Shown here: in pieces, positions 2,611 through 34,306 of the stretch
How the letters are laid out: every line of letters begins with the position of its first letter
How positions within the stretch are numbered: position 1 is the stretch's first letter
DNA from: a virus
Virus record (IMG/VR): IMGVR_UViG_3300037485_002027
Span: 1-37,916 of that record
Strand: one strand, 5' to 3'
DNA length: 37,916 bases
The notes under the pieces: model-generated
Told to the model about the DNA's origin: nothing
Databases searched by the model: none
What the model saw: the letters and a program-made list of their open reading frames with translations, nothing else
Program-made: the position numbers and the translations under genes

Positions 2611-4724
2611 TATGCGGTTTCCGCCAATCGTAGGTCGCGGGTGATTAGTTTTTGTTTTTGCTGGACGGGCAGATAGGTGATCTGGATGATCTCCGGATAG
2701 ACCGTCCGACCTGCTACCTGCGTCTTAAAGTTCATTTCGCGGCCTGTAATCTTCTCGATGCAGTCGCCGAGGGCGAAATCCGGCACTCCGGCGCCGTCAC
2801 CGAGCCAGAGACGATCCAAGGTAAAGCTGCCATTGATGGATAAATCCTCGTTGGCCTGGCGGATTCCGTCGATGTGCTTTGCCAGCTTGTCAGACTCGTC
2901 GGTTTCCCACGCGGGAAGATTTTGTCCGTAATAGCTGCTCGATGAGGTACGCTGGGTCAGCGAGTAACGGTCTTTGAAATTATAGATCGCGGCCTGAAGG
3001 AACGGGCTTCCGGAATAGCCTGCAGGGCGGGAGTCTTTGATCAGGCGGTTATCCATCTCGACGCAGGCGGTGACGCGGACGCGGGTTTTCCAGCCGCCAG
3101 TTTTAAAGACGCGGGAAGCAATCTTGTCGTCGGCAAGACTGCTAAAGTAATTTAGCTCAAATCCGGCCAGCGTTCCGGAAGCAATCGTGCTTTTATTTAA
3201 GTCCACCAACTCGGCTAAATTCTGTGTGGTGATGCGGACACCGCACTCGGCGGTCAGCGACGAGAGGGTGGCCGGCAGAACCTGCCAAGTTGAGCCGCTA
3301 TCGAAGGAGAATTCAACCTTGATTCCAACGCTGTTTAACGAGTCTTTATCGAAGGTTAAACAGGGCAAAAACCTGCGGTTAAAGGGGCCATAAAGACGCT
3401 TTCCGGTTTTGGAATCCTTGATATAGGCATCCGGGATGACGGCGGCAAAGTCAAACGTATCGCCGCGATCATAGCTGCCGCCGGAATAGGCGCCGACTTC
3501 GTTTAAGACCCACTTGCGGCCAATATCCCGCTGGAACGCATTGCCGCGTGCGTGGTAACGCTGAAAGAAGCTGAACTGGTTGGGGTTGGTCTCGGTCGCC
3601 AGATCGGCGTCGGTCTTAAAGACGTTGGCATAGCTGCTTGCGCTATCTAAGGTTAATTCGGAATCGGCCCAGCCTGGAACTAAATTAACCGTAATCTCAA
3701 AGGTATGCACATCACCAAGGCCCCAAGGGTTATTGACCACCGAATCGATATCCTCGGCAAAGTTGGCGGCGGCTAACAATTTGGCCCCGGCTGCCACGGC
3801 GATATCGATGGTGTCCTGGACGGCGGGAGCGTGGAGGGTATGCAGGATGGTCTGCTGATTGGATATACGCTGATACCCAGTCGCTTCGCCGGGTTTATAG
3901 AAGACCCAACGCGGGCCTTCGGCGGTGTATTCCTCACGCCAGGTGAGGCCGATGTTTTTGCAGATTTTTTCAATGGCATCCGGAATGGTCATCCCCTCGC
4001 AATCAACCGAGTGGATGACGCGGTTAAAATCGTCGCCTGAATGGACGATGCACTTAGTCGTTAAGATGGGGAAGATGTTGTAAACGCGGTTATACAGATA
4101 GTTCAATATGTACCCGATCATCTCGCCCGCCATCCAGTATTCGGCGCGGTTTTTGTCGGCGAAAATAGGTGCCGTAAACGCATCGCCGCGAACGGAATAA
4201 GTCAGACTCGTGGGGTCTTTGTCCGGCTTGCCACTGGCGTTAAAAACCAGCTTTCGCGCGGAAAAGAACGTGACCTCGTTGCACGGCGTGCTTCCGTTAT
4301 AATCATCGACGCCGCGAGCATACTGGCCGTAGCATGGCGAGGTCTTGGCTAAAAGCCAGCGGAAGTCGCGGCATTCGACGGCGACCTCTTCGCGGGCGTC
4401 GGATGAGCCATTGCCGCCGGCAAAGGAGGGACGATATCCAGAGGCAAAACCGTGGAAAAGAATCGTCGAATCATCCACCTGGTCGGTGCGGATGCGAATC
4501 TGCCAGCCGAAGGTGATGGGAAGCTGCTCATTCCAGCGGACGGAATTAAACCGGATGGTTGCCCGGTTGGATTTTGCGCCATGGTTGATCTCAATTTCTT
4601 CAACCACCACATCCCAGAGGATTATCCACGCAGGATCGACGCCGGTCATGGTGCAGCGGCGGGCCTCAACGACCAGCGGCTGGGCGGTGCGGAGCATGAA
4701 ATTTCGATCTGTCTTATTATTCAT
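2610..4724 (-). CDS. Baseplate hub / tail tip protein (putative)
   Basis: This 704-residue protein lies directly downstream of the tape measure and a small tail gene, the usual place for the hub that links the tail tube to receptor-binding proteins. The N-terminal 110 residues (VEEIEINHGAKSNRATIRF and following) look like the beta-barrel domain of gp27/gpD-type hub proteins. The later parts are beta-rich with mixed alpha/beta insertions. No lysozyme or peptidase motif is visible. The ATG follows a run of AAGAACT heptamers and has no strong Shine-Dalgarno; a second ATG lies at residue 10. The hub assignment is by position and general character, not a specific motif. Confidence 0.6.
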   Translation of the reverse strand: MNNKTDRNFMLRTAQPLVVEARRCTMTGVDPAWIILWDVVVEEIEINHGAKSNRATIRFNSVRWNEQLPITFGWQIRIRTDQVDDSTILFHGFASGYRPSFAGGNGSSDAREEVAVECRDFRWLLAKTSPCYGQYARGVDDYNGSTPCNEVTFFSARKLVFNASGKPDKDPTSLTYSVRGDAFTAPIFADKNRAEYWMAGEMIGYILNYLYNRVYNIFPILTTKCIVHSGDDFNRVIHSVDCEGMTIPDAIEKICKNIGLTWREEYTAEGPRWVFYKPGEATGYQRISNQQTILHTLHAPAVQDTIDIAVAAGAKLLAAANFAEDIDSVVNNPWGLGDVHTFEITVNLVPGWADSELTLDSASSYANVFKTDADLATETNPNQFSFFQRYHARGNAFQRDIGRKWVLNEVGAYSGGSYDRGDTFDFAAVIPDAYIKDSKTGKRLYGPFNRRFLPCLTFDKDSLNSVGIKVEFSFDSGSTWQVLPATLSSLTAECGVRITTQNLAELVDLNKSTIASGTLAGFELNYFSSLADDKIASRVFKTGGWKTRVRVTACVEMDNRLIKDSRPAGYSGSPFLQAAIYNFKDRYSLTQRTSSSSYYGQNLPAWETDESDKLAKHIDGIRQANEDLSINGSFTLDRLWLGDGAGVPDFALGDCIEKITGREMNFKTQVAGRTVYPEIIQITYLPVQQKQKLITRDLRLAETA

Positions 4725-7617: not shown

Positions 7618-7703
7618 TTTTAGTTCTTAGTTCTTAGTTCTTAGTTAAACTGGATTCCCGCCTGCGCGGGAATGACAATGAATCTCAATTTTCAATTTAA
7701 TTT
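7618..7703 (-). repeat. Composite repeat block: AAGAACT array, dRS3-like palindrome, TTGAAAA units
   Basis: The gap between the tail terminator fusion and the tube gene contains three repeat types in a row. First are AGTTCTT heptamers at 7622-7644. Next is a 20-bp ATTCCC-N8-GGGAAT palindrome at 7654-7673 (followed by GACAA). Last are CAATTTT units at 7684-7703, which reach into the end of the terminator gene. The palindrome matches the layout of the Neisseria dRS3 repeat. No gene fits here. Confidence 0.75.
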
Positions 7704-21880: not shown

Positions 21881-22516
21881 TTAGACAAGGTTGGATTTGG
21901 CTGCGGTGGATTTGACGGTTTGGGGCAGTGAGCTTCGGACGGCGAAGACGGCCTGCTCGGTGGCAATCGACTGGACGCCGGTCTGGGCGGTGCGGAAGGC
22001 GCTTATTGCTTCCAAGCCGCCATTAGCCTCCAGCCATCGCTTGAATTCCTCATTGCCCTCGACGACTTCCTTGAGCGCCTTAGCTTTGGTCTGGGCTGCC
22101 TTCAGGGCGGCGGCAACCTTGAGCCCTACGCCGCCGGTAAACAGGCCTGCGATGCCAATACCCAGCGATAGCCACCCATCGGCAGCGGACGCAATGTCGT
22201 CAATCGTGGGGCGTTTGGCGGCGTCCGTCTGGGCGGCGGCCAGCGTCGTCGGGTAGTCGGTGATCGTGGGGCTGGCGGGCAGGCCGGTGTAGGCTAATGC
22301 CGACGCGGTGCCGGATACGAGTTTCTGGGTTGCCGGGGCTCCCGCCTGGGCTCCGGCGGCGTTAACCGACTGGGCTACCTGGTAGGTATCGAGGGCAATT
22401 TGCTTTTGCGGCTCGGTGGGAGCGAGGCGGAGGGAGCAACCCAGGAATACAGGAATACAGGAACACAGGAATACAGAAATACAGGAACGCAGGGATACAG
22501 GAATACAAGAATACAT
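21881..22516 (-). CDS. Lipoprotein-like first late-operon protein with repeat-coded leader
   Basis: The 211-residue protein opens with MYSCIPVSLRSCISVFLCSC, continuing to VFLGCS. This hydrophobic Cys-rich leader is encoded entirely by nine tandem octamers. It may act as a lipoprotein signal, with FLGC as an imperfect lipobox. Ala/Thr-rich sequence follows, then a membrane-like segment (WLSLGIGIAGLFTGGVGL) and a helical C-terminus. AAGGA six bases before the ATG supports the start. It is the first gene after the leader with the terminator-like hairpins, where Mu-like phages keep lysis genes, so a spanin or holin-related role is possible but unproven. Confidence 0.6.
   Translation of the reverse strand: MYSCIPVSLRSCISVFLCSCIPVFLGCSLRLAPTEPQKQIALDTYQVAQSVNAAGAQAGAPATQKLVSGTASALAYTGLPASPTITDYPTTLAAAQTDAAKRPTIDDIASAADGWLSLGIGIAGLFTGGVGLKVAAALKAAQTKAKALKEVVEGNEEFKRWLEANGGLEAISAFRTAQTGVQSIATEQAVFAVRSSLPQTVKSTAAKSNLV
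22441..22515 (-). repeat. Nine-copy octamer array (AGGAATAC)
   Basis: Eight-base units AGGAATAC with scattered changes run without interruption on the plus strand, ending at the start codon of the lipoprotein-like gene. Three units equal eight codons, so the peptide shows an eight-residue period (SCIPVSLR, SCISVFLC, SCIPVFLG). The same octamer occurs at 26017-26048. Confidence 0.85.
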
Positions 22517-22547
22517 TCGGAATCCTTTCCAGTTTCAGTTTCGGAAA

Positions 22548-22601
22548 GGGCTTTTTTACGCAAAAAGCCCGCAAACCAGTTGAGAAACCAGTCTGCGGGC
22601 T
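22548..22601 (-). promoter_or_regulatory. Terminator/antiterminator-like leader of the late operon
   Basis: On the minus strand AGCCCGCA (22601-22594) pairs with TGCGGGCT (22573-22566), followed by TTTT, giving a plausible intrinsic terminator. GGGCTTTTT (22570-22562) also pairs with AAAAAGCCC (22556-22548). The two hairpins share bases and exclude each other. They lie 30-85 bases before the first late gene. The first stem could alternatively simply end the two-gene operon 22738-23887. Confidence 0.55.
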
Positions 22602-22737
22602 AAAGATTCTTAGTCCGTTTTCGCCACAACTTTTCGGAAACGGCGGCGAAAAATTAAATTGTCAGTGTGTAATTTATAATTTTATTTCGACAAGTCAAGC
22701 GGAAAAATTGAATTTTTATTATTTTTTGTTTTGGGCT
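22602..22737. other. Short AT-rich gap
   Basis: No gene or clear promoter is seen between the membrane zinc-ribbon gene and the terminator-like hairpins. The part near 22665-22735 is AT-rich. Confidence 0.5.
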
Positions 22738-23547
22738 TTACCAAGATTGCGCAGTGATTGAGTATTCGTAAATTCGGGCATCCTGTCCAGCTTTTTTCTG
22801 CTGGTCAACGAAATTCTTGCTGCCTGAAATATATGGGGATAGTCCACGGGACACCGTAAGAATCCAGCCACCGGATTCGATAAGGCCATATTCGTTTTTT
22901 TTATCCTGTTCGAATTTTATATCTTTGATTCGCTTTAAATCGAACTTTACAAGTTTGCAAAAGCAATTTGCAACAGTTAGACCTAAAAAGACATTTTGGT
23001 TTTCTTCATAGATTTCCGCCGGATTTCCCATGAAATCTGCGTGCCAGACGGCACTGAAACCCGCAACAGAATTTTTATCATCAGACCATAACTTTAGATG
23101 TGGTATGTATTTATTAGCATCTGGGACAAAACACGTTGCCGTTAAAGATCGTCCGCGAAGAATTTCTGTCTGCGGCGGTTCGCCATTCCAAAACAATCCT
23201 TTTGATTCCAATAATCCTTTGTAACCTGAAAACGAATAAGGGTCTTGACTGACCTTGGTTTTGAAAATATTTCCATAAAAATAAAACGTGATCATTGAGG
23301 CAGAGATGACCCCAAGCGTTGACAGAAATGCGGTTTTAAATGGCACTGGCATCCGATTCCATGCCGAACGGATCGGGTTGTGTTTTTTTATCGTTTTGAG
23401 GGTTTCGGCGACAATGTCCGGCGTTGGTGGCGAAACCCACGCTGCCGCAAGAAACGCAAACTTACACTGAGGACACTTTATATTTCGACCTTGATAGGCG
23501 TCTGGACATTTAATAAAACGATTGCAATGCGGACATTGAGTTCTCAT
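22738..23547 (-). CDS. Membrane protein with N-terminal zinc ribbon
   Basis: The 269-residue protein starts MRTQCPHCNRFIKCP with CPHC (C5, C8) and CPQC (C25, C28), an MJ0042-type zinc ribbon. One membrane helix follows at about 72-92 and then a soluble alpha/beta C-terminal domain without recognised motif. GAGG five bases before this ATG supports it over the longer start at 23580. It forms a two-gene operon with the upstream regulator candidate, read leftward from the divergent promoter region and ended by the hairpin at 22566-22601. This location suggests a lysogenic function such as superinfection exclusion; that is inference. Confidence 0.65.
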   Translation of the reverse strand: MRTQCPHCNRFIKCPDAYQGRNIKCPQCKFAFLAAAWVSPPTPDIVAETLKTIKKHNPIRSAWNRMPVPFKTAFLSTLGVISASMITFYFYGNIFKTKVSQDPYSFSGYKGLLESKGLFWNGEPPQTEILRGRSLTATCFVPDANKYIPHLKLWSDDKNSVAGFSAVWHADFMGNPAEIYEENQNVFLGLTVANCFCKLVKFDLKRIKDIKFEQDKKNEYGLIESGGWILTVSRGLSPYISGSKNFVDQQKKAGQDARIYEYSITAQSW

Positions 23548-23554
23548 TTTTTCC

Positions 23555-23887
23555 TCATTTGTCTCGGAGGATTGATTCAAGGCCTTGAATCAACTGCTTG
23601 GCTGTTGCGGCAATCTGTTTCTCGTGATCAGAAAAGGCATCAGGATTATTTATATTATCCATCCAATTAACCGTATCTTTGATCCGCTGAATAGCTGTTT
23701 GAAGTTCTTCTTTGATCATTCCATGCGCAATCATAATCGCCTTCCCGCGATGCACCATATCGGATTGGTCAAACAATACAATGCCTGCATTGAGTACATC
23801 GCGCACGCGATGTTCTCGTTGTTCTAAGGAAGCCATGATCCGTTGTGTGGTTGGCGTGAAATATAATGTATATCGATTTTCTGGCAT
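23555..23887 (-). CDS. Possible ribbon-helix-helix regulator, repressor candidate
   Basis: The 110-residue protein begins YTLYFTPTTQRIMASLEQRE and RVRDVLNAGIVLFDQ, a strand-helix-helix pattern like CopG/Arc repressors. A helical C-terminus follows. It is divergent to the early operon, the classic place for a phage repressor. The predicted minus promoter is so close to the ATG that the message may be leaderless; no Shine-Dalgarno is visible. The DNA-binding call is tentative. Confidence 0.55.
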   Translation of the reverse strand: MPENRYTLYFTPTTQRIMASLEQREHRVRDVLNAGIVLFDQSDMVHRGKAIMIAHGMIKEELQTAIQRIKDTVNWMDNINNPDAFSDHEKQIAATAKQLIQGLESILRDK

Positions 23888-23897
23888 AATTAAAAAA

Positions 23898-23925
23898 ATT
23901 TTACACGTTTTTTTTGTTGACGCAA
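23898..23925 (-). promoter_or_regulatory. Candidate leftward promoter of the lysogenic operon
   Basis: On the minus strand TTGCGT (23925-23920) and TAAAAT (23903-23898) are separated by 16 bases. Transcription would begin near 23891, only a few bases before the ATG at 23887. Confidence 0.4.
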
Positions 23926-23931
23926 GTCTTT

Positions 23932-23963
23932 TTGTTAAAACAATTTAGCGTATCTGTTATGAT
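23932..23963 (+). promoter_or_regulatory. Candidate early rightward promoter with operator
   Basis: TTAAAA (23935-23940), a 17-base spacer and an extended -10 TGTTATGAT (23955-23963) form a reasonable promoter for the early genes. The -35 lies in a perfect 12-bp palindrome TTGTTAAAACAA (23932-23943) that could bind a repressor. Another possible -35, TTGACG, lies near 23918. Confidence 0.5.
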
Positions 23964-24042
23964 GCATTATTGTATTAAATAATTAAAAAGTGGTATTTTT
24001 TATGTTGCGAAATGCCGAAACAGTGATAGAAAAGGAAATTAT

Positions 24043-24276
24043 ATGGCTGGCAAAGAAAAAGATATGAATAAACGGTCGCTGCATTTCGACCGCATCCGCA
24101 AAAGCGACCAGGTCGTCATCGCCTGGGTTAATACCATTGCCGCGTGGATGCGGGTTACGCCCACCACCGTGGGTAGGCTGATGATCCTTGATGGATGCGA
24201 GGCGTTCGCGAAAAAACAGAATATCAAGTTGCCTACGGTGGCCGAAGTGAGAAACCAGTCTGCGGATGCAGACTGA
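24043..24276 (+). CDS. First early protein, small regulator candidate
   Basis: The 77-residue basic protein (MAGKEKDMNKRSLHFDRIRK) has a helical core AWVNTIAAWMRVTPTTVGRL that could hold a helix-turn-helix or ribbon-helix-helix. AAGGA six bases before the ATG gives a strong start. As the first gene after the early promoter it occupies the place of ner/cro in Mu-like phages. Its 3' end contains an 18-base segment complementary to the late leader and a 7-bp hairpin (AGTCTGC/GCAGACT at 24257-24274). Confidence 0.6.
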   Translation: MAGKEKDMNKRSLHFDRIRKSDQVVIAWVNTIAAWMRVTPTTVGRLMILDGCEAFAKKQNIKLPTVAEVRNQSADAD

Positions 24277-24328
24277 TAACCGGTGGGCGAGGGATCGGAA
24301 ACCTAAGCCCACCAAATTTTAAAACTGG

Positions 24329-24375
24329 ATTCCCGCCTGCGCGGGAATGACAAATTAAATGCGGGAATGACAAGG
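24329..24375 (+). repeat. dRS3-like palindrome plus partial copy
   Basis: ATTCCC-GCCTGCGC-GGGAAT at 24329-24348 is followed by GACAA. After a few bases comes a partial second copy, TGCGGGAATGACAAGG. It is identical in core to the copies at 7654 and 26543. Confidence 0.75.
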
Positions 24376-24403
24376 AATGAAATTTTCAAAGAACGAGGGC
24401 ATT

Positions 24404-25282
24404 ATGATTCGACAGTGGGATAAGGACAAAGGGAATTACGGGAAAAAGATTCACAAAGGGGTGGGATTTTCAATTTTCAATTTTCAATTTTCAATTTTTA
24501 TCGCCGCAGCCTCCACTGCAGCAATAATCATCATCGTTCTTAGTGCCCCCCACTGCGACGTCGCGGCTAAGTCCGCTGGTGCGGACTTAGTCTGCGACTG
24601 GGGGGATTGCAGGAATACAACTACGCACACCCTATTTCCTTCGGCGACCGCAATGGACGTCACGATGCCCCTTCAAAAGGCCTGCGCGGCTCCTAACGCG
24701 CAGGCTGATTTGAAACTTACCGGCCAGCTTCCAGCGGCCAGCTTCCAGCATAACCCAACTGCCGACAGCGAGCGTGCCGGGCAGCCTAACGACTTGACGG
24801 AACTCCGAGTGGCCACGGATGGCCGTAAGGAGGTGAACCCTGCCGCCTGTCGCGGCGGGAATGCCCGCGTCAGCGGACGCCGCTCCGCAGATCAGAAGCC
24901 AGAAGCCAGAAGCCAGAAGCCAGAAGTAAAGGAAAAGGAAATTATTTTACAGGCCGCACGACACAACGGGCTTAATGCCGACCAGACGGCGATCCTGATG
25001 GCTATCCGCCGGGCGGAAAACGGCAAGGCGGGTCGGGAGTTTGGCGTGCTGCATCCTAAGGCGGTCGATACCAACCTGCGGACACAGGCCCGGTGGGCGG
25101 CGGCGACGGTGGCGGCAAACTGGAAAAGGTTTGCGGACACAAGAACCCAAGAACTCAAGAACCCAAGAACTCAAGAATTTATTCACTTCCTGGCGGATCG
25201 GTATTGTCCGCCGTCGGTTGACCCGGTGGGGAATCGGAATTGGAAAAAGAACGTGGCTAAAATTGTAGATTGTCAATTGTAG
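24404..25282 (+). CDS. Endolysin with membrane anchor and repeat-built linker
   Basis: The last 120 residues (EIILQAARHNGLNADQTAIL and on, ending RNWKKNVAKIVDCQL) match a lysozyme/transglycosylase-like phage domain with RRAENGKAGREFGVLHP; Glu205 is the likely catalytic acid. The N-terminus has a hydrophobic helix (FSIFNFQFSIFIAAAST, then AAIIIIVLSA) suited to a signal-arrest or anchor sequence. The linker of some 140 residues is made of at least six different repeat elements in open frame. GAGG five bases before the ATG at 24404 supports this start over 24377. An endolysin among the early genes is unusual. The linker may be disordered, or it may not be translated if the true start is elsewhere; no in-frame start was found nearer the domain. 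Confidence 0.7.
   Translation: MIRQWDKDKGNYGKKIHKGVGFSIFNFQFSIFIAAASTAAIIIIVLSAPHCDVAAKSAGADLVCDWGDCRNTTTHTLFPSATAMDVTMPLQKACAAPNAQADLKLTGQLPAASFQHNPTADSERAGQPNDLTELRVATDGRKEVNPAACRGGNARVSGRRSADQKPEARSQKPEVKEKEIILQAARHNGLNADQTAILMAIRRAENGKAGREFGVLHPKAVDTNLRTQARWAAATVAANWKRFADTRTQELKNPRTQEFIHFLADRYCPPSVDPVGNRNWKKNVAKIVDCQL
24465..24500 (+). repeat. TTTTCAA heptamer array coding the endolysin membrane helix
   Basis: Four TTTTCAA units on the coding strand encode FSIFNFQFSIF. Here the array is in the opposite orientation to genes compared with most other arrays; in this orientation all three frames are free of stops. Confidence 0.8.
24546..24605 (+). repeat. 60-bp near-palindrome inside the endolysin gene
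   Basis: CCCCCCA/TGGGGGG outer arms, a GTCGC/GCGAC middle stem and a perfect CTAAGTCCGC-TGGT-GCGGACTTAG inner stem form a hairpin of about 22 pairs, with a 7-base bulge on the left. It resembles a REP or MITE-like element and is read through in frame. Confidence 0.7.
24680..24705 (+). repeat. Second palindrome inside the endolysin gene
   Basis: GCCTGCGC and GCGCAGGC are perfect 8-bp arms around a 10-base loop. It is unlike the 60-bp element and the dRS3 copies. Confidence 0.6.
24723..24749 (+). repeat. CCAGCTT/CCAGCGG heptamers inside the endolysin gene
   Basis: The array matches the family that carries ribosome binding sites at 6651 and 13365, but is in the opposite orientation to the gene. 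It codes GQLPAASFQ. Confidence 0.75.
24894..24926 (+). repeat. AGAAGCC heptamer array
   Basis: Four and a half AGAAGCC units code QKPEARSQKPE in the endolysin linker, just before the lytic domain. Confidence 0.8.
25141..25177 (+). repeat. AAGAACCC/AAGAACTC octamer array
   Basis: Four and a half eight-base units encode RTQELKNPRTQEF, an insertion inside the lytic domain before the conserved FLADRYCPPS. Confidence 0.8.
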
Positions 25283-26872: not shown

Positions 26873-26881
26873 AAATTGACA

Positions 26882-28816
26882 ATGAATAAAATGGTTGACA
26901 TCAAAACGGCAGCGACGATGCTGGGGATTAACGAAGGCCACCTGCGGCGGCAATGCTGCATGGGTAAAATGGCCGGAGCCAAACGAACCCAGCAGGGGTG
27001 GCGGATTCCTGTTTCCGCCGACTCGCGGCTGTCGGGCATTAAAAGCCCGCAGCAGCTATCGCTCGATGTTGACCTGACGGATGTGCCGGCCCATAAACGG
27101 GATGAGGCCATCCGCCGTCGCGGCATCATCGAACGGATGGAACAGTTCTGCGCGGCCGCCTGCCGCAACAACATCGGGCGGGTGATGGCGATGCAGCGGT
27201 TTAGCAACGACACTCAAATACCCGTCCGGACGCTTCAGCGGTGGCTGGATAACTGGCGGCAGCGCGGGATCGCCGGCCTGATCGATTCGCGGGGCGGACA
27301 GACGTTCGGCGAGATTATCAGCAAAGACGCTTGGGATTTATTTCTAACCATGTATTTAACGCAGCAAAGATTGTCAGTTAAACTGTGTTTAAATAATGTT
27401 GCCTATACAGCCAAAACCGGAAAGAAAAATTGGACGCTGCCATCCCTGCGGACGATGCAGACTTATATTAATGATAAAATCCCTTATCCAGTGCTTGTCT
27501 TGCACCGGGAAGGGATGGCTGCCTACGAAGCCAAGTGTGCTCCGTTTATCCTCACTGATCCGGATAGCGTTTCTCCAGGACAGGTATGGGTTGGAGATCA
27601 TCATCAGTTTAACTGCTGGATACAATATCGCGGACAGTGGGTGCGTCCGTGGATCACTGCGTGGGAAGATTACCGCAGCCGGATGATCGTCGGGTGGACA
27701 ATCACGACCAACCCCAACCAGACGACGATTTTGACAGCGTTTAAAAATGGTATCGCATCCTACGGCCCGCCGGAATCGGTCAAAATCGATAATGGCAAGG
27801 ACTACGACTCGGAGCTATTTACCGGGCAAACCAAGCTGGAACGCAAGCGGGCGATCAGCAAGGGGTATATAGACGAGGAAACCGTTGCGGGTATCTATGC
27901 CATGCTCAATATCCGGGTTTCCTTTGCCATTCCATATCATCCCCAGTCGAAGAAAATTGAACGGTGGTTTGACACGCTCGATTGCCAATTTGTTAAGACG
28001 ATGACGACCTACTGCGGCAAAGACAGCAACCGCAAGCCGGATGACCTGGTTGCGACGCTCAAATCCGAGAAAGCCCGCGCGGCGGCGATGACGCTGGAAA
28101 CCTTTGCGGTGGCGGCGGGCAGGTACATCGATAACTATAACCACTCCGCCCATACAGGCTTCGGCATGGACGGATCCGCTCCGGCGGAAGTGCTCAATCG
28201 CCGCACCAGCGTGCGGGCTATCGATAGCGATACGCTTAACCTGCTGACGCAGGTTTGGACGGGCGTACAGACGGTCGGCAAAAACGGAGTTAAGGTTAAG
28301 GGCCTGTGGTATGGTCAATATAACCCGGAACTTATGGCGATGCAGAACAAGCCCGCTCGCGTGGCTTATGATCCCGACGATGTGCGGACGGTACACGTTT
28401 ATGACGCGAGCACATACAAGCTGATTACCATTGCCGAACAGGCGACGCTGGCTGCATACGGCGCGGTGGACGAAGAGACGCTGCGCGAGGCGATGGCTAA
28501 TAAGAACCGCAGCAAGCGGATTATCAAATTGGCACGACCTGCCGAACGGGTGGCGACGATGAGCCTTGCCGACCTGACTTTGGATATGATGGCCGACAAA
28601 ACCGTCGAACGTCCACCCGCCATTTCGCGCAACGTTAAGCCCGTGCGGACTCCGATGGACGGCCAGGTCAAAGAGCACCTACGTCAAAAGCAGCAGCGGC
28701 AGCTTAAGCGGGCTGTGGGCGATGGCGTTAGTCCTAAGTACACGATCGAGGAAGAGCAAAACGACTATACACCTCCAACATGGACTATCATCGACGATGA
28801 ATTTGAAGCTAAATAA
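26882..28816 (+). CDS. MuA-type DDE transposase
   Basis: The 644-residue protein integrates and replicates the phage by transposition. The N-terminus is an excisionase-like HTH (DIKTAATMLGINEGHLRRQ), followed by a second HTH region (TQIPVRTLQRWLDNWRQRGI). The RNase-H-like core carries D239 (WVGDHHQF), D303 (KIDNGKDYDS) and E360 (HPQSKKIERWF). Spacings of 64 and 57 are close to those of MuA. A beta-barrel and a charged C-terminal region follow, as needed to contact the B protein. The ATG lies in the TTGAAAATTGACAATGAA repeat, eight bases after the preceding stop. Confidence 0.93.
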   Translation: MNKMVDIKTAATMLGINEGHLRRQCCMGKMAGAKRTQQGWRIPVSADSRLSGIKSPQQLSLDVDLTDVPAHKRDEAIRRRGIIERMEQFCAAACRNNIGRVMAMQRFSNDTQIPVRTLQRWLDNWRQRGIAGLIDSRGGQTFGEIISKDAWDLFLTMYLTQQRLSVKLCLNNVAYTAKTGKKNWTLPSLRTMQTYINDKIPYPVLVLHREGMAAYEAKCAPFILTDPDSVSPGQVWVGDHHQFNCWIQYRGQWVRPWITAWEDYRSRMIVGWTITTNPNQTTILTAFKNGIASYGPPESVKIDNGKDYDSELFTGQTKLERKRAISKGYIDEETVAGIYAMLNIRVSFAIPYHPQSKKIERWFDTLDCQFVKTMTTYCGKDSNRKPDDLVATLKSEKARAAAMTLETFAVAAGRYIDNYNHSAHTGFGMDGSAPAEVLNRRTSVRAIDSDTLNLLTQVWTGVQTVGKNGVKVKGLWYGQYNPELMAMQNKPARVAYDPDDVRTVHVYDASTYKLITIAEQATLAAYGAVDEETLREAMANKNRSKRIIKLARPAERVATMSLADLTLDMMADKTVERPPAISRNVKPVRTPMDGQVKEHLRQKQQRQLKRAVGDGVSPKYTIEEEQNDYTPPTWTIIDDEFEAK

Positions 28817-28833
28817 TAATAAGGATGTCGAGG

Positions 28834-30006
28834 ATGGAAACGAATGATAAAAATCAAAACCATCCAGGGACGGAACTAAACCAGACTTTACAACAAGACG
28901 CGTTTTTTAGAGAGGTAAGGATGCCTATTGATACAGCAGCAGATGCCGTTTCTCAAGCGGTATTTATCAAAGACCTGCGGGTCTGGATGGCTGAAAATAA
29001 GATCGGACAGGGAACGTTGGCTGAGAAGGTGGGAATCTCCACAACCCAGATCAGCCAGATTATAAACAATAAGTATCCCGGCGACGCGGGGCCGGCGATC
29101 AAGAAAATCGCCGACTATATGGATACCGTCCAGCGGCGTAAAAGAGTAGAAAAGGGCAATGGTTTTGTTTATACAAAAACAGCCAAACGCATCTTTTCAG
29201 TTATCAAAGAGACGCAGACTTATAGCGATGACGCCGAGGCACGCATTGGGATGATCATCGGCGACAGCGGCCACGGCAAATCGGTCTGCCTGAAACAGTT
29301 TGTCCGGGTTAATACCAACGCGGTCTATGTGGAACTTGACGATACCATGTCGTCAACGGCACTGTTTTCCGAGATCGCCAAGGAGCTGAAGATCGACTAT
29401 ACCGGCGGCGTTAAGACGCTGACCCAGCGGATTGTCGAACGGCTGAGCGGGCGGCTGATGACGATACTATTAGATGAGGCGTCGGCGCTGGACGTCGGGA
29501 AACTTAATCAGCTTCGGCAGATTATCTGCGTCCGCTGCAAGTGTCCGCTGATAATCGCGGGCAACGCCCACCTATTAAATACAATTAACGAGGATGTTAC
29601 CCGTAAGGGATATGAGTCGCTCGACCAGTTCCGGTCGCGACTATTAACAATACTAAATTTAAATGATTTAGCCACTGGCGGCGGAAACGACGACGATGGA
29701 CTTTACACCGAAGACGACGTTCGAAAACTTTACGAATATGGCGGAATCAGCTTGACGAAGGACGCGAAGAAAACGCTTCGCAGAATTTGTCGAACACCTA
29801 AAACGGGACGCCTTCGTACCTGCAGCATTATTATCACAATGCTTCATCGCATAACAGAAATTCGCAACAGCGAGGTGATTTCGTCCGCTGATATTTTTTA
29901 TGCCATAGAACAATTGGGTCTTCCTATTATGAATCAAAAGTCCATTAGGAAGGGTCAGAATGAGGACGAGCAGGTTGAGTCGGAAGTGCGGGCAAGAACG
30001 GCGTAG
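28834..30006 (+). CDS. MuB-type AAA ATPase with N-terminal HTH
   Basis: The 390-residue protein binds target DNA and activates the transposase. A Cro-like HTH (KIGQGTLAEKVGISTTQISQ, about 56-75) is followed by an ATPase domain with Walker A GDSGHGKS at 143-150 and Walker B ILLDEAS at 211-217. A helical C-terminal domain completes the MuB plan. Starts at 28825, 28834 and 28921 are in frame; the last has the strongest site (AGAGG five bases upstream) and would give MPIDTAADAV. It follows the transposase directly. Confidence 0.9.
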   Translation: METNDKNQNHPGTELNQTLQQDAFFREVRMPIDTAADAVSQAVFIKDLRVWMAENKIGQGTLAEKVGISTTQISQIINNKYPGDAGPAIKKIADYMDTVQRRKRVEKGNGFVYTKTAKRIFSVIKETQTYSDDAEARIGMIIGDSGHGKSVCLKQFVRVNTNAVYVELDDTMSSTALFSEIAKELKIDYTGGVKTLTQRIVERLSGRLMTILLDEASALDVGKLNQLRQIICVRCKCPLIIAGNAHLLNTINEDVTRKGYESLDQFRSRLLTILNLNDLATGGGNDDDGLYTEDDVRKLYEYGGISLTKDAKKTLRRICRTPKTGRLRTCSIIITMLHRITEIRNSEVISSADIFYAIEQLGLPIMNQKSIRKGQNEDEQVESEVRARTA

Positions 30007-30131: not shown

Positions 30132-30668
30132 ATGGTCAATAATGAACAAATTAAACTAATGCAGGTGGCGGCGAAGGTCGCCGGGCTGCGGACGAAAGAA
30201 CAGGATGGGCGGTACTACCTGATCTTAGCCCAGTACCGAAAGCCCAACGGGGCGATCTGCGTAAGCTGCAAAGACCTCAATAATTATCAGATCGATGATT
30301 TTCTGGCGATCTGCGAATCGATGGGGTGGCGGTATCCTGGCAAGACCGAAACGTACTGCCGCGATCGGGTTAATTCCGCTTTTGACGCGGACTTTGCCAG
30401 CTACGCCCAGCGGCAGGCCATCGACTATCTGGCTGGCGATCTGGGGATGGGCGGGGAACCGACTTCGGCCTTTATCCGGCGGATGACGCGCGGCAGGACG
30501 GATAGCATCCTCCAGCTTGCCCACGGCGAAGCCTATAAGATTATCGAGGCGCTGAAGGCTGCGATCTCACGCCAGGACGGCGTACCTTACGAGAATTTAA
30601 ACGATATTTTCACTTATTATAATAAGGATTTAAAACATGGCGAAAAGCTCCAAACGTGTCCGATCTGA
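30132..30668 (+). CDS. Mu gp16-like (DUF1018) protein
   Basis: The 178-residue protein starts VNNEQIKLMQVAAKVAGLRT, the opening pattern of Mu gp16 proteins. It has DLNNYQIDDFLAICESMGWR in the expected place. It lies between transposase B and Gam, as in Mu-like early operons. Role in the Mu cycle is not well defined. Confidence 0.7.
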   Translation: MVNNEQIKLMQVAAKVAGLRTKEQDGRYYLILAQYRKPNGAICVSCKDLNNYQIDDFLAICESMGWRYPGKTETYCRDRVNSAFDADFASYAQRQAIDYLAGDLGMGGEPTSAFIRRMTRGRTDSILQLAHGEAYKIIEALKAAISRQDGVPYENLNDIFTYYNKDLKHGEKLQTCPI

Positions 30669-31155
30669 AATGCTGCTGTACCCTATAGCCAATTGGAATG
30701 AGGCGGACGAACATCTTAAATGCATCGGCGACCTGCGGCTGCAGATTGCCTCCGAGGAACGCATTGCCAAAGACGCTATCGATGAGGCGAAACTGATTTT
30801 GCAGGAAACAACCGAGCCGCTGACCGCCGAAATCAAACGGCACGTCGAAAGCCTGGAAGCCTTCGCTGCCAACCATATTGACGACTTTGGAAAGGCCCGG
30901 AGCCGTAAGCTGGCCTTTGGGGTCGTCGGCTGGCGGGCCAGCCGGTCGATGAAGGTCTGCAAAGATATTGTTGACCGCATCAAGGGCGTATTCGGTAAAA
31001 AAGCGGACGCCTATCTGCGGATCAAAGAGGATGCGGATAAAGAAGCCTTAGCCAAACTGACCGACGAACAGCTTGTCGCGGTCGGATGCCGGTGGGAAAA
31101 CAAGGATGTATTTTACGCCGAGCCGGACTCGCCGGAAGCGGTGGATTACCAATGA
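30637..31155 (+). CDS. Gam-like host-nuclease inhibitor
   Basis: The 172-residue protein binds DNA ends and shields them from exonucleases. It has the long helical hairpin of the Gam family (EADEHLKCIGDLRLQIASEE to FAANHIDDF) and the conserved beta segment KLAFGVVGWRASRSMK. AAGGA precedes the ATG at moderate distance, inside the previous gene, which it overlaps by 32 bases. Confidence 0.88.
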   Translation: MAKSSKRVRSEMLLYPIANWNEADEHLKCIGDLRLQIASEERIAKDAIDEAKLILQETTEPLTAEIKRHVESLEAFAANHIDDFGKARSRKLAFGVVGWRASRSMKVCKDIVDRIKGVFGKKADAYLRIKEDADKEALAKLTDEQLVAVGCRWENKDVFYAEPDSPEAVDYQ

Positions 31156-32929: not shown

Positions 32930-32938
32930 GTGTTCGAA

Positions 32939-34306
32939 ATGAAAACAATACTCCTTCTTTTGCTGGCATCCGTTTCGGCTGCATGGGTTTCGGCCACGGA
33001 TTTGCGGGATTTTGTGCTGCTGTCACAGTGCTGGGAAAAGCCGCGCTGTTACGAATGTGTTGGGGCGGACTGTTCCGGCAATGGGATTGTCGACGCGACA
33101 GATCTGCTGATATTTGCAGAAGGGTGGCTTAGCGTGAGTTTGCCAAATAAAATACAAGTTATGGGGATTACCAATCCGGCAGTAGTCAATGGTTTATATT
33201 TTCTTGATGAAGCAAATGGATGGTATAACAAAGGCGGGAATCCAGAAGATTGCCAGATTTTTTTAAATCTGAAGTTGCCTGAAAGCTTATTTTACTGGCA
33301 AATACAAACAGCAGATGGTGATTGGGTGGCAAATAGCGAACTTATAGCCACAGAGACATCATCTCCAGTTGACCTTGATTACACAACACTTGAACCGTAT
33401 ACAGGAACGGCGACGATCAGCCGTTTGCCAAATAAAATACAAGTTACAGGGATTACCAATCCGGCAGTAGTCAATGGTACATATTTTCTTGATGAAGCAA
33501 ATGGATTTTATAACAAAGATGCAAATCCAGCAGATTGTCAGATTTTTTTAAATCTGAAGTTGCCTGAAAGCTTATTTTACTGGCAAATACAAACAGCAGA
33601 TGGTGATTGGGTGGCAAATAGCGAACTTGTAGCCACAGAGATATCATCTCCAGTTGACCTTGATTACACAACACTTGAACCTTATACAGGCACGGCGACG
33701 ATCAGCAAATACCGTGACTACAATGTCTATCGCGGGCAGGATGGCGTCATTGATTATAATACTCCGATAGCAACAATGCTGTTGGATGATACGCAGGTTG
33801 CAATTGCTGGCCAAACGCTTCCTGCAGGGACGATATGGCATTATGTTCGCAGGCGGATTAAAAACTGCTGCGAGCTTCAGTCTCTGGATTCGCCGGTGTG
33901 CATCGTGCGGATCGGCGACGATGGGGAGATTCGCGGGGACATGCCAAATCCGCCAACCGATCTGATCGCCGAGGGAATGGCGGGCGGGAAGATACGGCTG
34001 CGATGGCGCTATTCGGCTGCCAGCCAGGAAACGCCGCCTGCGGGGTTTGCTATCTTTGTTTCCGATAGTGACACTCCGTGGGACTTTGATGACCCAGTTG
34101 GGCTGGTCGAGTCCGGCATAGGGCGGAATAATTCGTTTAGCTGGACTTCAGCGGCGATGACCCATGGGAAGCTGTATCGGTTTATTGTGCGGGCGTATTC
34201 GGCGACAGGGGAACTGTCGCAAAATACGAACGAGGTGTCATTTGCGGCGGACGCGGTCGGGCCGGAGGCGATTGCGACGGTATTTGCTGAGTGGGCGGTG
34301 GATTGA
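32939..34306 (+). CDS. Exported dockerin protein with duplicated domain and FN3
   Basis: The 455-residue protein has a signal peptide (MKTILLLLLASVSAAWVSA) and a dockerin-type region with paired half-repeats (TDLRDFVLLSQCW; GADCSGNGIVDATDLLIFAE then GWL, about 20-64). Two nearly identical 95-residue domains with ITNPAVVNG and YFLDEANG follow. After a bridging segment comes a fibronectin type III domain (PTDLIAEGMAGGKIRLRWRY and on). The duplicated part is AT-richer than the rest. The start at ATG 32939 is favoured over GTG 32930. It lies between the holin-like gene and two proteins of unknown function; receptor or host-surface binding is likely. Confidence 0.7.
   Translation: MKTILLLLLASVSAAWVSATDLRDFVLLSQCWEKPRCYECVGADCSGNGIVDATDLLIFAEGWLSVSLPNKIQVMGITNPAVVNGLYFLDEANGWYNKGGNPEDCQIFLNLKLPESLFYWQIQTADGDWVANSELIATETSSPVDLDYTTLEPYTGTATISRLPNKIQVTGITNPAVVNGTYFLDEANGFYNKDANPADCQIFLNLKLPESLFYWQIQTADGDWVANSELVATEISSPVDLDYTTLEPYTGTATISKYRDYNVYRGQDGVIDYNTPIATMLLDDTQVAIAGQTLPAGTIWHYVRRRIKNCCELQSLDSPVCIVRIGDDGEIRGDMPNPPTDLIAEGMAGGKIRLRWRYSAASQETPPAGFAIFVSDSDTPWDFDDPVGLVESGIGRNNSFSWTSAAMTHGKLYRFIVRAYSATGELSQNTNEVSFAADAVGPEAIATVFAEWAVD
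33140..33706 (+). repeat. Tandem duplication of a 285-bp coding unit
   Basis: The first copy (33140-33424) and the second (33425-33706) are nearly identical at nucleotide level, with long exact stretches, so the duplication is recent. Each encodes a domain ending in PVDLDYTTLEPYTGTATIS. The length of 95 codons keeps the frame, so copy number can change without breaking the gene. Confidence 0.9.

Follow-up and report, generated by a model that had tools for sequence, protein, structure and literature searches.

Why would a transposable phage carry the same 18 nucleotides twice, once across the stop signal of its late leader and once at the end of its first early gene? In known phages, late-gene timing depends mainly on proteins, namely activators, antiterminators and new polymerases. 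Here, the pairing of a late stop signal with the end of the first early gene suggests an early-late RNA-RNA switch. The DNA analysed, hereafter the window, is the 37.9-kb record of a Mu-like transposable phage (37,916 nt; IMGVR_UViG_3300037485_002027). The preliminary description placed the 18-mer, TGAGAAACCAGTCTGCGG, at 22581-22598 and 24248-24265 of the plus strand, and both copies are confirmed; they are the sole matches in the window at up to 3 mismatches, against a shuffle expectation of 0.03. The two sites lie ~1.67 kb apart as direct repeats on the plus strand and flank divergent regulatory genes. No exact match to the word was found in other IMG/VR contigs, a collection from which the window's own record may have been left out.

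The window carries the MuA transposase, MuB, Gam and MuF-type head protein by which Mu-like phages are recognised (Table 1), with Pfam matches to DDE_2, Mu-transpos_C, Phage_Mu_Gam and Phage_Mu_F and a PHROG match to a DNA transposition protein. Its divergent layout is common to relatives in IMG/VR contigs and metagenome-assembled genomes, most of them labelled Planctomycetota or Phycisphaerae. Exact repeat pairs of at least 18 nt number 37 in the window, nearly all of them low-complexity intergenic sequence, tandem copies at 33.1-33.7 kb or an interspersed palindrome; unlike nearly all of these, the TGAGAAACCAGTCTGCGG pair is neither low-complexity nor interspersed. A tandem-like block at 33138-33706 has a 285-bp period with exact stretches of up to 90 nt, and lies within a tail-fibre-like ORF (32930-34306). 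The interspersed palindromic repeat TAAAACTGGATTCCCGCCTGCGCGGGAATGACAA is intergenic at 7647, 24320 and 26534, where the three direct copies are identical over 32-34 nt, with an inverted copy of 14 nt at 33232. Runs of heptamer type (ATTTTCA, AGTTCTT, CAGAAGC) occur between genes at 1637, 4731, 7620, 17709, 24466, 30095 and other positions. In one relative, L011 (relatives are given by L numbers), a tRNA gene recognised by Rfam lies between ORF1 and MuA (4616-4700, minus strand).

Table 1. Features of the late leader, the early region and their surroundings in the window
Feature	Position	Strand	Basis or remark
Leader promoter, sigma70-like, TTGACT-16-TAAATT	22671-22698	-	Poor match in the window; several relatives have a clearer one
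hpA, first hairpin of the leader RNA	22618-22652	-	Predicted fold; hairpin predicted at the equivalent place in relatives
Late-leader intrinsic terminator (16-bp stem, TCTC loop, U-tract)	22562-22601	-	Pattern and fold; model R1 finds related terminators
Antisense segment: 13 nt of the terminator 5' arm, whole loop, 1 further base	22581-22598	-	18/18 nt complementary to the early mRNA
AAAAAAGCCC, candidate competitor for the terminator 3' arm after readthrough	22548-22557	-	Sequence; enrichment across leaders
First late ORF, 211 aa, SD-like AGGA	21881-22516	-	~45 nt past the U-tract; homologues in L004, L013 and L014
ORF1, first early gene, 77 aa	24043-24276	+	No Pfam or PHROG match
Target/effector word in the early mRNA, complementary to the leader	24248-24265	+	Sequence match
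hp1, CAGTCTGC-GGAT-GCAGACTG, early hairpin running into the ORF1 stop codon	24256-24275	+	Predicted fold
hp2, second early hairpin, GGTGGGC...GCCCACC	24282-24313	+	Predicted fold
MuA	26876-28816	+	Pfam/PHROG scans
MuB-like	28825-30006	+	Pfam/PHROG scans
Gam	30637-31155	+	Pfam/PHROG scans
Terminase, portal/MuF-type and major head genes		-	Pfam/PHROG scans

On the late side, the terminator hairpin spans 22601-22566 of the minus strand, with 16 pairs and a 4-nt loop followed by a U-tract, and is real by pattern. The shared word overlaps its first arm, as had been proposed, and the overlap originally given as five of eight bases is corrected to 13 of 16 arm bases plus the whole loop. The placement of this terminator within a late leader, with a late ORF close downstream, holds across relatives: with ORFs called mechanically, 20/23 leaders have 17-82 nt between the terminator and the start of the first late ORF, which leaves little room for another promoter, and L062, L064 and L066 have 121-176 nt. 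The leader promoter of the window scores 8.5, no better than chance (18% of shuffles are equally good); as a set, leader promoters are enriched (sum 162 versus 136.4 shuffled, sd 4.5, 19 leaders), with 7/19 at ≤0.05 singly. Competitors for the terminator 3' arm located after the U-tract are also enriched (sum 302.5 versus 235.8 shuffled, sd 10.7, 19 leaders; p ≤0.05 singly in 6/19), in line with the competing downstream hairpin of the preliminary description. As the cause of antitermination, this hairpin fails on timing, being formed after polymerase has passed the U-tract; it is retained as a possible lock.

By eye, the plus strand at 22524-22557 (CCTTTCC...GGAAAGG, then TTTTTT) resembles a second terminator facing that of the late leader, and, read on the opposite strand, its T-run gives the competing word. 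The short first late ORFs found just after the leader in L005, L014, L034 and L057 look CsrA-like by eye; the single one checked, that of L005, gave no Pfam match. The motif GCCGA lies inside the TTGAC-TATAAT spacers of the leader and ORF1 promoters in many relatives. It was set aside as a phage operator, the same arrangement being present in 6 host genomes too (50 matches versus 31 for a reversed-pattern control, summed). A known RNA family was ruled out by Rfam scans, which gave no above-gathering match around the leader and early sites (best 25 bits versus a cut-off of 99) and nothing but a tRNA in 8 relatives.

On the early side, the second copy of the 18-mer forms the 3' end of ORF1 and lies partly inside hp1, a hairpin absent from the preliminary description. 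An equivalent of hp1, read by eye, is present in the predicted folds of the early segments of 18/18 phages. ORF1 is 61-114 aa long in most phages and the pairing site overlaps or abuts its stop codon; in L056 and L039, the reading frame extends slightly beyond the site. In relatives (e.g. L004 from ~7278), hp1 precedes a GC-rich hp2, which is frequently followed by a third short hairpin ahead of the next gene. The idea that hp1 is a general intrinsic terminator was rejected: the sequence downstream is U-rich in some phages (L053, L154), but the window has no U-tract there.

Covarying complementarity in related phages, proposed at the outset as the check on the idea, is strongly borne out. A covariance model of the leader terminator (R1) was built from 9 leaders. 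Searched against 66 sources with E up to 1, it returned 29 matches, of which some were redundant or spurious, and two prophages from genomes were added with it. For each leader, the early strand was scanned over its full length between the leader and MuA (or the contig end) to find the best complement. In 17/18 main-set phages this complement lies where the first small early ORF ends, and in L014 the second best lies there. Four phages that first appeared to be exceptions (L051, L055, L039, L061) also carry the pair, in unrelated or diverged sequences with scores of 44-47, at the end of the first early ORF and with the leader 29-51 nt before the first late ORF; their terminators were hand-picked from a short late-strand list (five tested), a choice less blind than for the other 18. 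The weak model match of L061 at 7639 is the complement strand of its own early hairpin. The pair is thus present, each time with its own sequence, in 22/22 non-redundant phages that have the divergent layout and both sites on the contig, window included. Left out of the 22 were L013, whose early side lies beyond the contig, and L036, whose leader does; L003 and L032, with insufficient upstream sequence; L040, L041 and L060, where the layout was not found; MuA loci that are short or more distant; and L006, L058, L059 and L063, which are redundant (same match as L005, L034, L011 and L054).

Specificity was assessed with equal freedom for every combination, by scoring 34 nt of leader against whole early regions in all pairings of the 22 phages. 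Cognate scores average 43.5, versus 27.9 (sd 4.2) for non-cognate combinations and 27.2 for reversed leaders, and the observed cognate sum was reached by 0/100,000 re-pairings, permutations that ignore phylogeny. The cognate early region is top-ranked for 21/22 leaders (third for L007) and the cognate leader for 19/22 early regions (fourth for L014, third for L057, second for L039). In an alignment anchored on the hairpin core, columns -8 to -4, where the terminator loop faces the segment before hp1, are paired in 17, 18, 17, 18 and 17 of 18 phages and use 3-5 pair types each; columns -14 to -10 are paired in just 2-9 of 18. In cognate combinations 90% of the loop segment is paired, versus 46% in non-cognate ones, a result unchanged without L064 and L066, which are near L062; like the column counts, it is uncorrected for shared ancestry. 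The anatomy of the pairing, its conservation and its covariation are observations on these genomes. Because the sites covary in 22/22 phages with their own sequences, base pairing of the early and late-leader transcripts is, judged from these comparisons, very probably under selection. The many other window repeats of at least 18 nt might have favoured chance or a recent duplication in this single phage; such an origin is scarcely credible for a pair that has differing sequences in all 22 testable phages, and the covariation test rules out a chance repeat.

The pairing also has a sharp edge. In 17/18 phages its boundary falls -4 to +1 nt from the first 3'-arm base of the terminator (+4 in L154), and the pairing takes the terminator 5' half and loop and almost none of the 3' half. 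These details bear on whether the shared words might instead be DNA sites, either phage-specific protein operators or direct repeats that exchange or delete the immunity cassette between them. Plus-strand direct repeats flanking divergent regulatory genes are what such sites might look like, and operators, too, vary between immunity types. However, the copies lie inside hairpins (the terminator and the ORF1 end) and not at promoters, which speaks against operators; the match stops at the apex of an RNA hairpin; and a site-specific recombinase would be expected to need an invariant site, whereas the loop columns vary among phages. Differences between copies lean weakly to G-U as well (16 G-U-compatible versus 7 A-C-type, with 11 transversions; one-sided p 0.047, ancestry ignored). 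DNA sites are, on this evidence, very improbable.

Production of the two RNAs, termination, and the direction and outcome of pairing are what we infer from sequence. The direction favoured, if tentatively, is a two-RNA switch in which early RNA antiterminates the late leader. The late-strand promoter would give a leader of ~100 nt ending at the intrinsic terminator just upstream of the first late ORF, and before early transcription this leader would stop short. The end of ORF1 in the early transcript would complement the terminator 5' half and loop, with a single-stranded toehold matching the loop; accumulating early RNA would pair with the nascent leader, so that the terminator could not form. 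The freed 3' arm would then be captured by its downstream complement and late transcription would read through, the competing hairpin locking the antiterminated state at most and not triggering it. The fuller version, a natural mRNA-borne antiterminator in which the message of the first early gene would open the late operon in trans, with a loop code diversified to fit its own leader best, is put forward with greater reserve.

Antitermination is preferred because it explains the position of the terminator, the boundary at the apex and the downstream competitor. It is also supported by the failure to find a Mor/C- or Q-like activator among the 29 window proteins scanned with Pfam and/or PHROGs (proteins without an assignment remain), and by synthetic STAR RNAs, which switch on transcription via the terminator 5' half. 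Against it, the mechanism would be kinetically demanding, since early RNA must catch the nascent leader before the 3' arm exists. The early word is folded in hp1, which the model does not need and which is yet kept in 18/18 phages, and in L014 the best early complement is not at hp1. The leader, with its predicted 5' hairpin, would resemble a stable small RNA. The predicted gain of co-folding over separate folds ranges from -2.7 to -20.6 kcal/mol and is small in several phages, and the window promoter is at chance level.

These points bring in a second reading, in which the terminated leader is a trans-acting antisense small RNA on the early mRNA; it is possible if somewhat doubtful, and about as easy to defend. 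The leader would have a promoter of its own, perhaps active in the lysogen, and its loop would nucleate on the single strand before hp1 and open hp1. A duplex of ~20 bp at the ORF1 end would leave the early operon message cut by RNase III, destabilised or untranslated, providing an RNA layer of immunity or early shut-off. A leader made of two hairpins including the terminator, a target hairpin conserved at the ORF1 stop, and a loop-to-single-strand seed with the highest covariation would all suit such an RNA, for which StxS and OOP, as portrayed in the passages cited below, are phage precedents. This reading accounts neither for the halt of pairing at the terminator apex, nor for the position of the terminator in the late-operon 5' UTR, nor for a competitor downstream of the small RNA's end. 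Pairing might also do both, freeing the late operon and removing the early message (or hp1 function) in a one-step early-late handover. Both partners keep mutually exclusive hairpins, and in several phages the duplex differs little in energy from the separate folds; this is consistent with such a reciprocal switch, which is the least economical of the three RNA readings and is considered unlikely.

A conserved RNA-RNA link between the first early gene and the late terminator would act as an RNA timer, would be the natural equivalent of a device from synthetic biology, and would supply a set of naturally diversified RNA pairs. The pair would also be a concrete regulatory element for Planctomycetota phages, with nothing comparable in the literature searched. 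Antisense control of early phage genes via hairpin loops is exercised by the CI RNA of P4. The cited account of C4 RNA (P1/P7) describes an antisense RNA acting on antirepressor mRNA via hairpin loops (PMC12197685). Searches with cmscan gave no C4 match in window 22300-24500 (E up to 5) or in 8 relatives (gathering score), and unlike for C4 and P4 CI, the target here is not a ribosome-binding site but the ORF1 end. Lambda OOP, in the passages cited, pairs with the end of the mRNA of an early regulatory gene, cII, with RNase III involved (PMC5869508). Like OOP, a short terminator-ended phage RNA, the predicted leader is complementary to the end of a gene, ORF1, which has no Pfam match; OOP is cis-encoded and overlaps cII, whereas here the sites are separate and pairing would proceed via the terminator 5' half. 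Gifsy-1 IsrK is described in the cited text as having two isoforms from a single phage promoter, one short and terminated, the other reading through, of which the short one is trans-acting (PMC4825925); it differs in affecting translation of its own longer form.

The late side has its own parallels. At lambda pR'/tR', as here, a late operon has a short leader ending at a terminator; the antiterminator there is a protein, Q, whereas nothing Q-like was found among the 29 scanned window proteins (unassigned ones remain). In Stx phages, the terminated PR'-tR' late leader is itself a small RNA, StxS, according to the cited passages (PMC7873438). Unlike in lambda and with StxS, the leader here has its match within the phage's own early mRNA. 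The consulted portion of a review of small RNAs in termination describes Rho-dependent control and no phage mRNA pairing with an intrinsic terminator, and the open-licence literature searched yielded no natural precedent for an early phage mRNA antiterminating a late operon. A close design is synthetic: in the cited descriptions of STAR, an RNA acting in trans against the terminator 5' half upstream of a gene prevents termination (PMC5435934, PMC10465534). The window has the same parts, an intrinsic terminator between a (weak) promoter and a gene, and a phage early RNA complementary to the terminator 5' half. STAR is engineered, whereas the phage partner would be a natural early mRNA, folded in a hairpin and embedded in a developmental programme.
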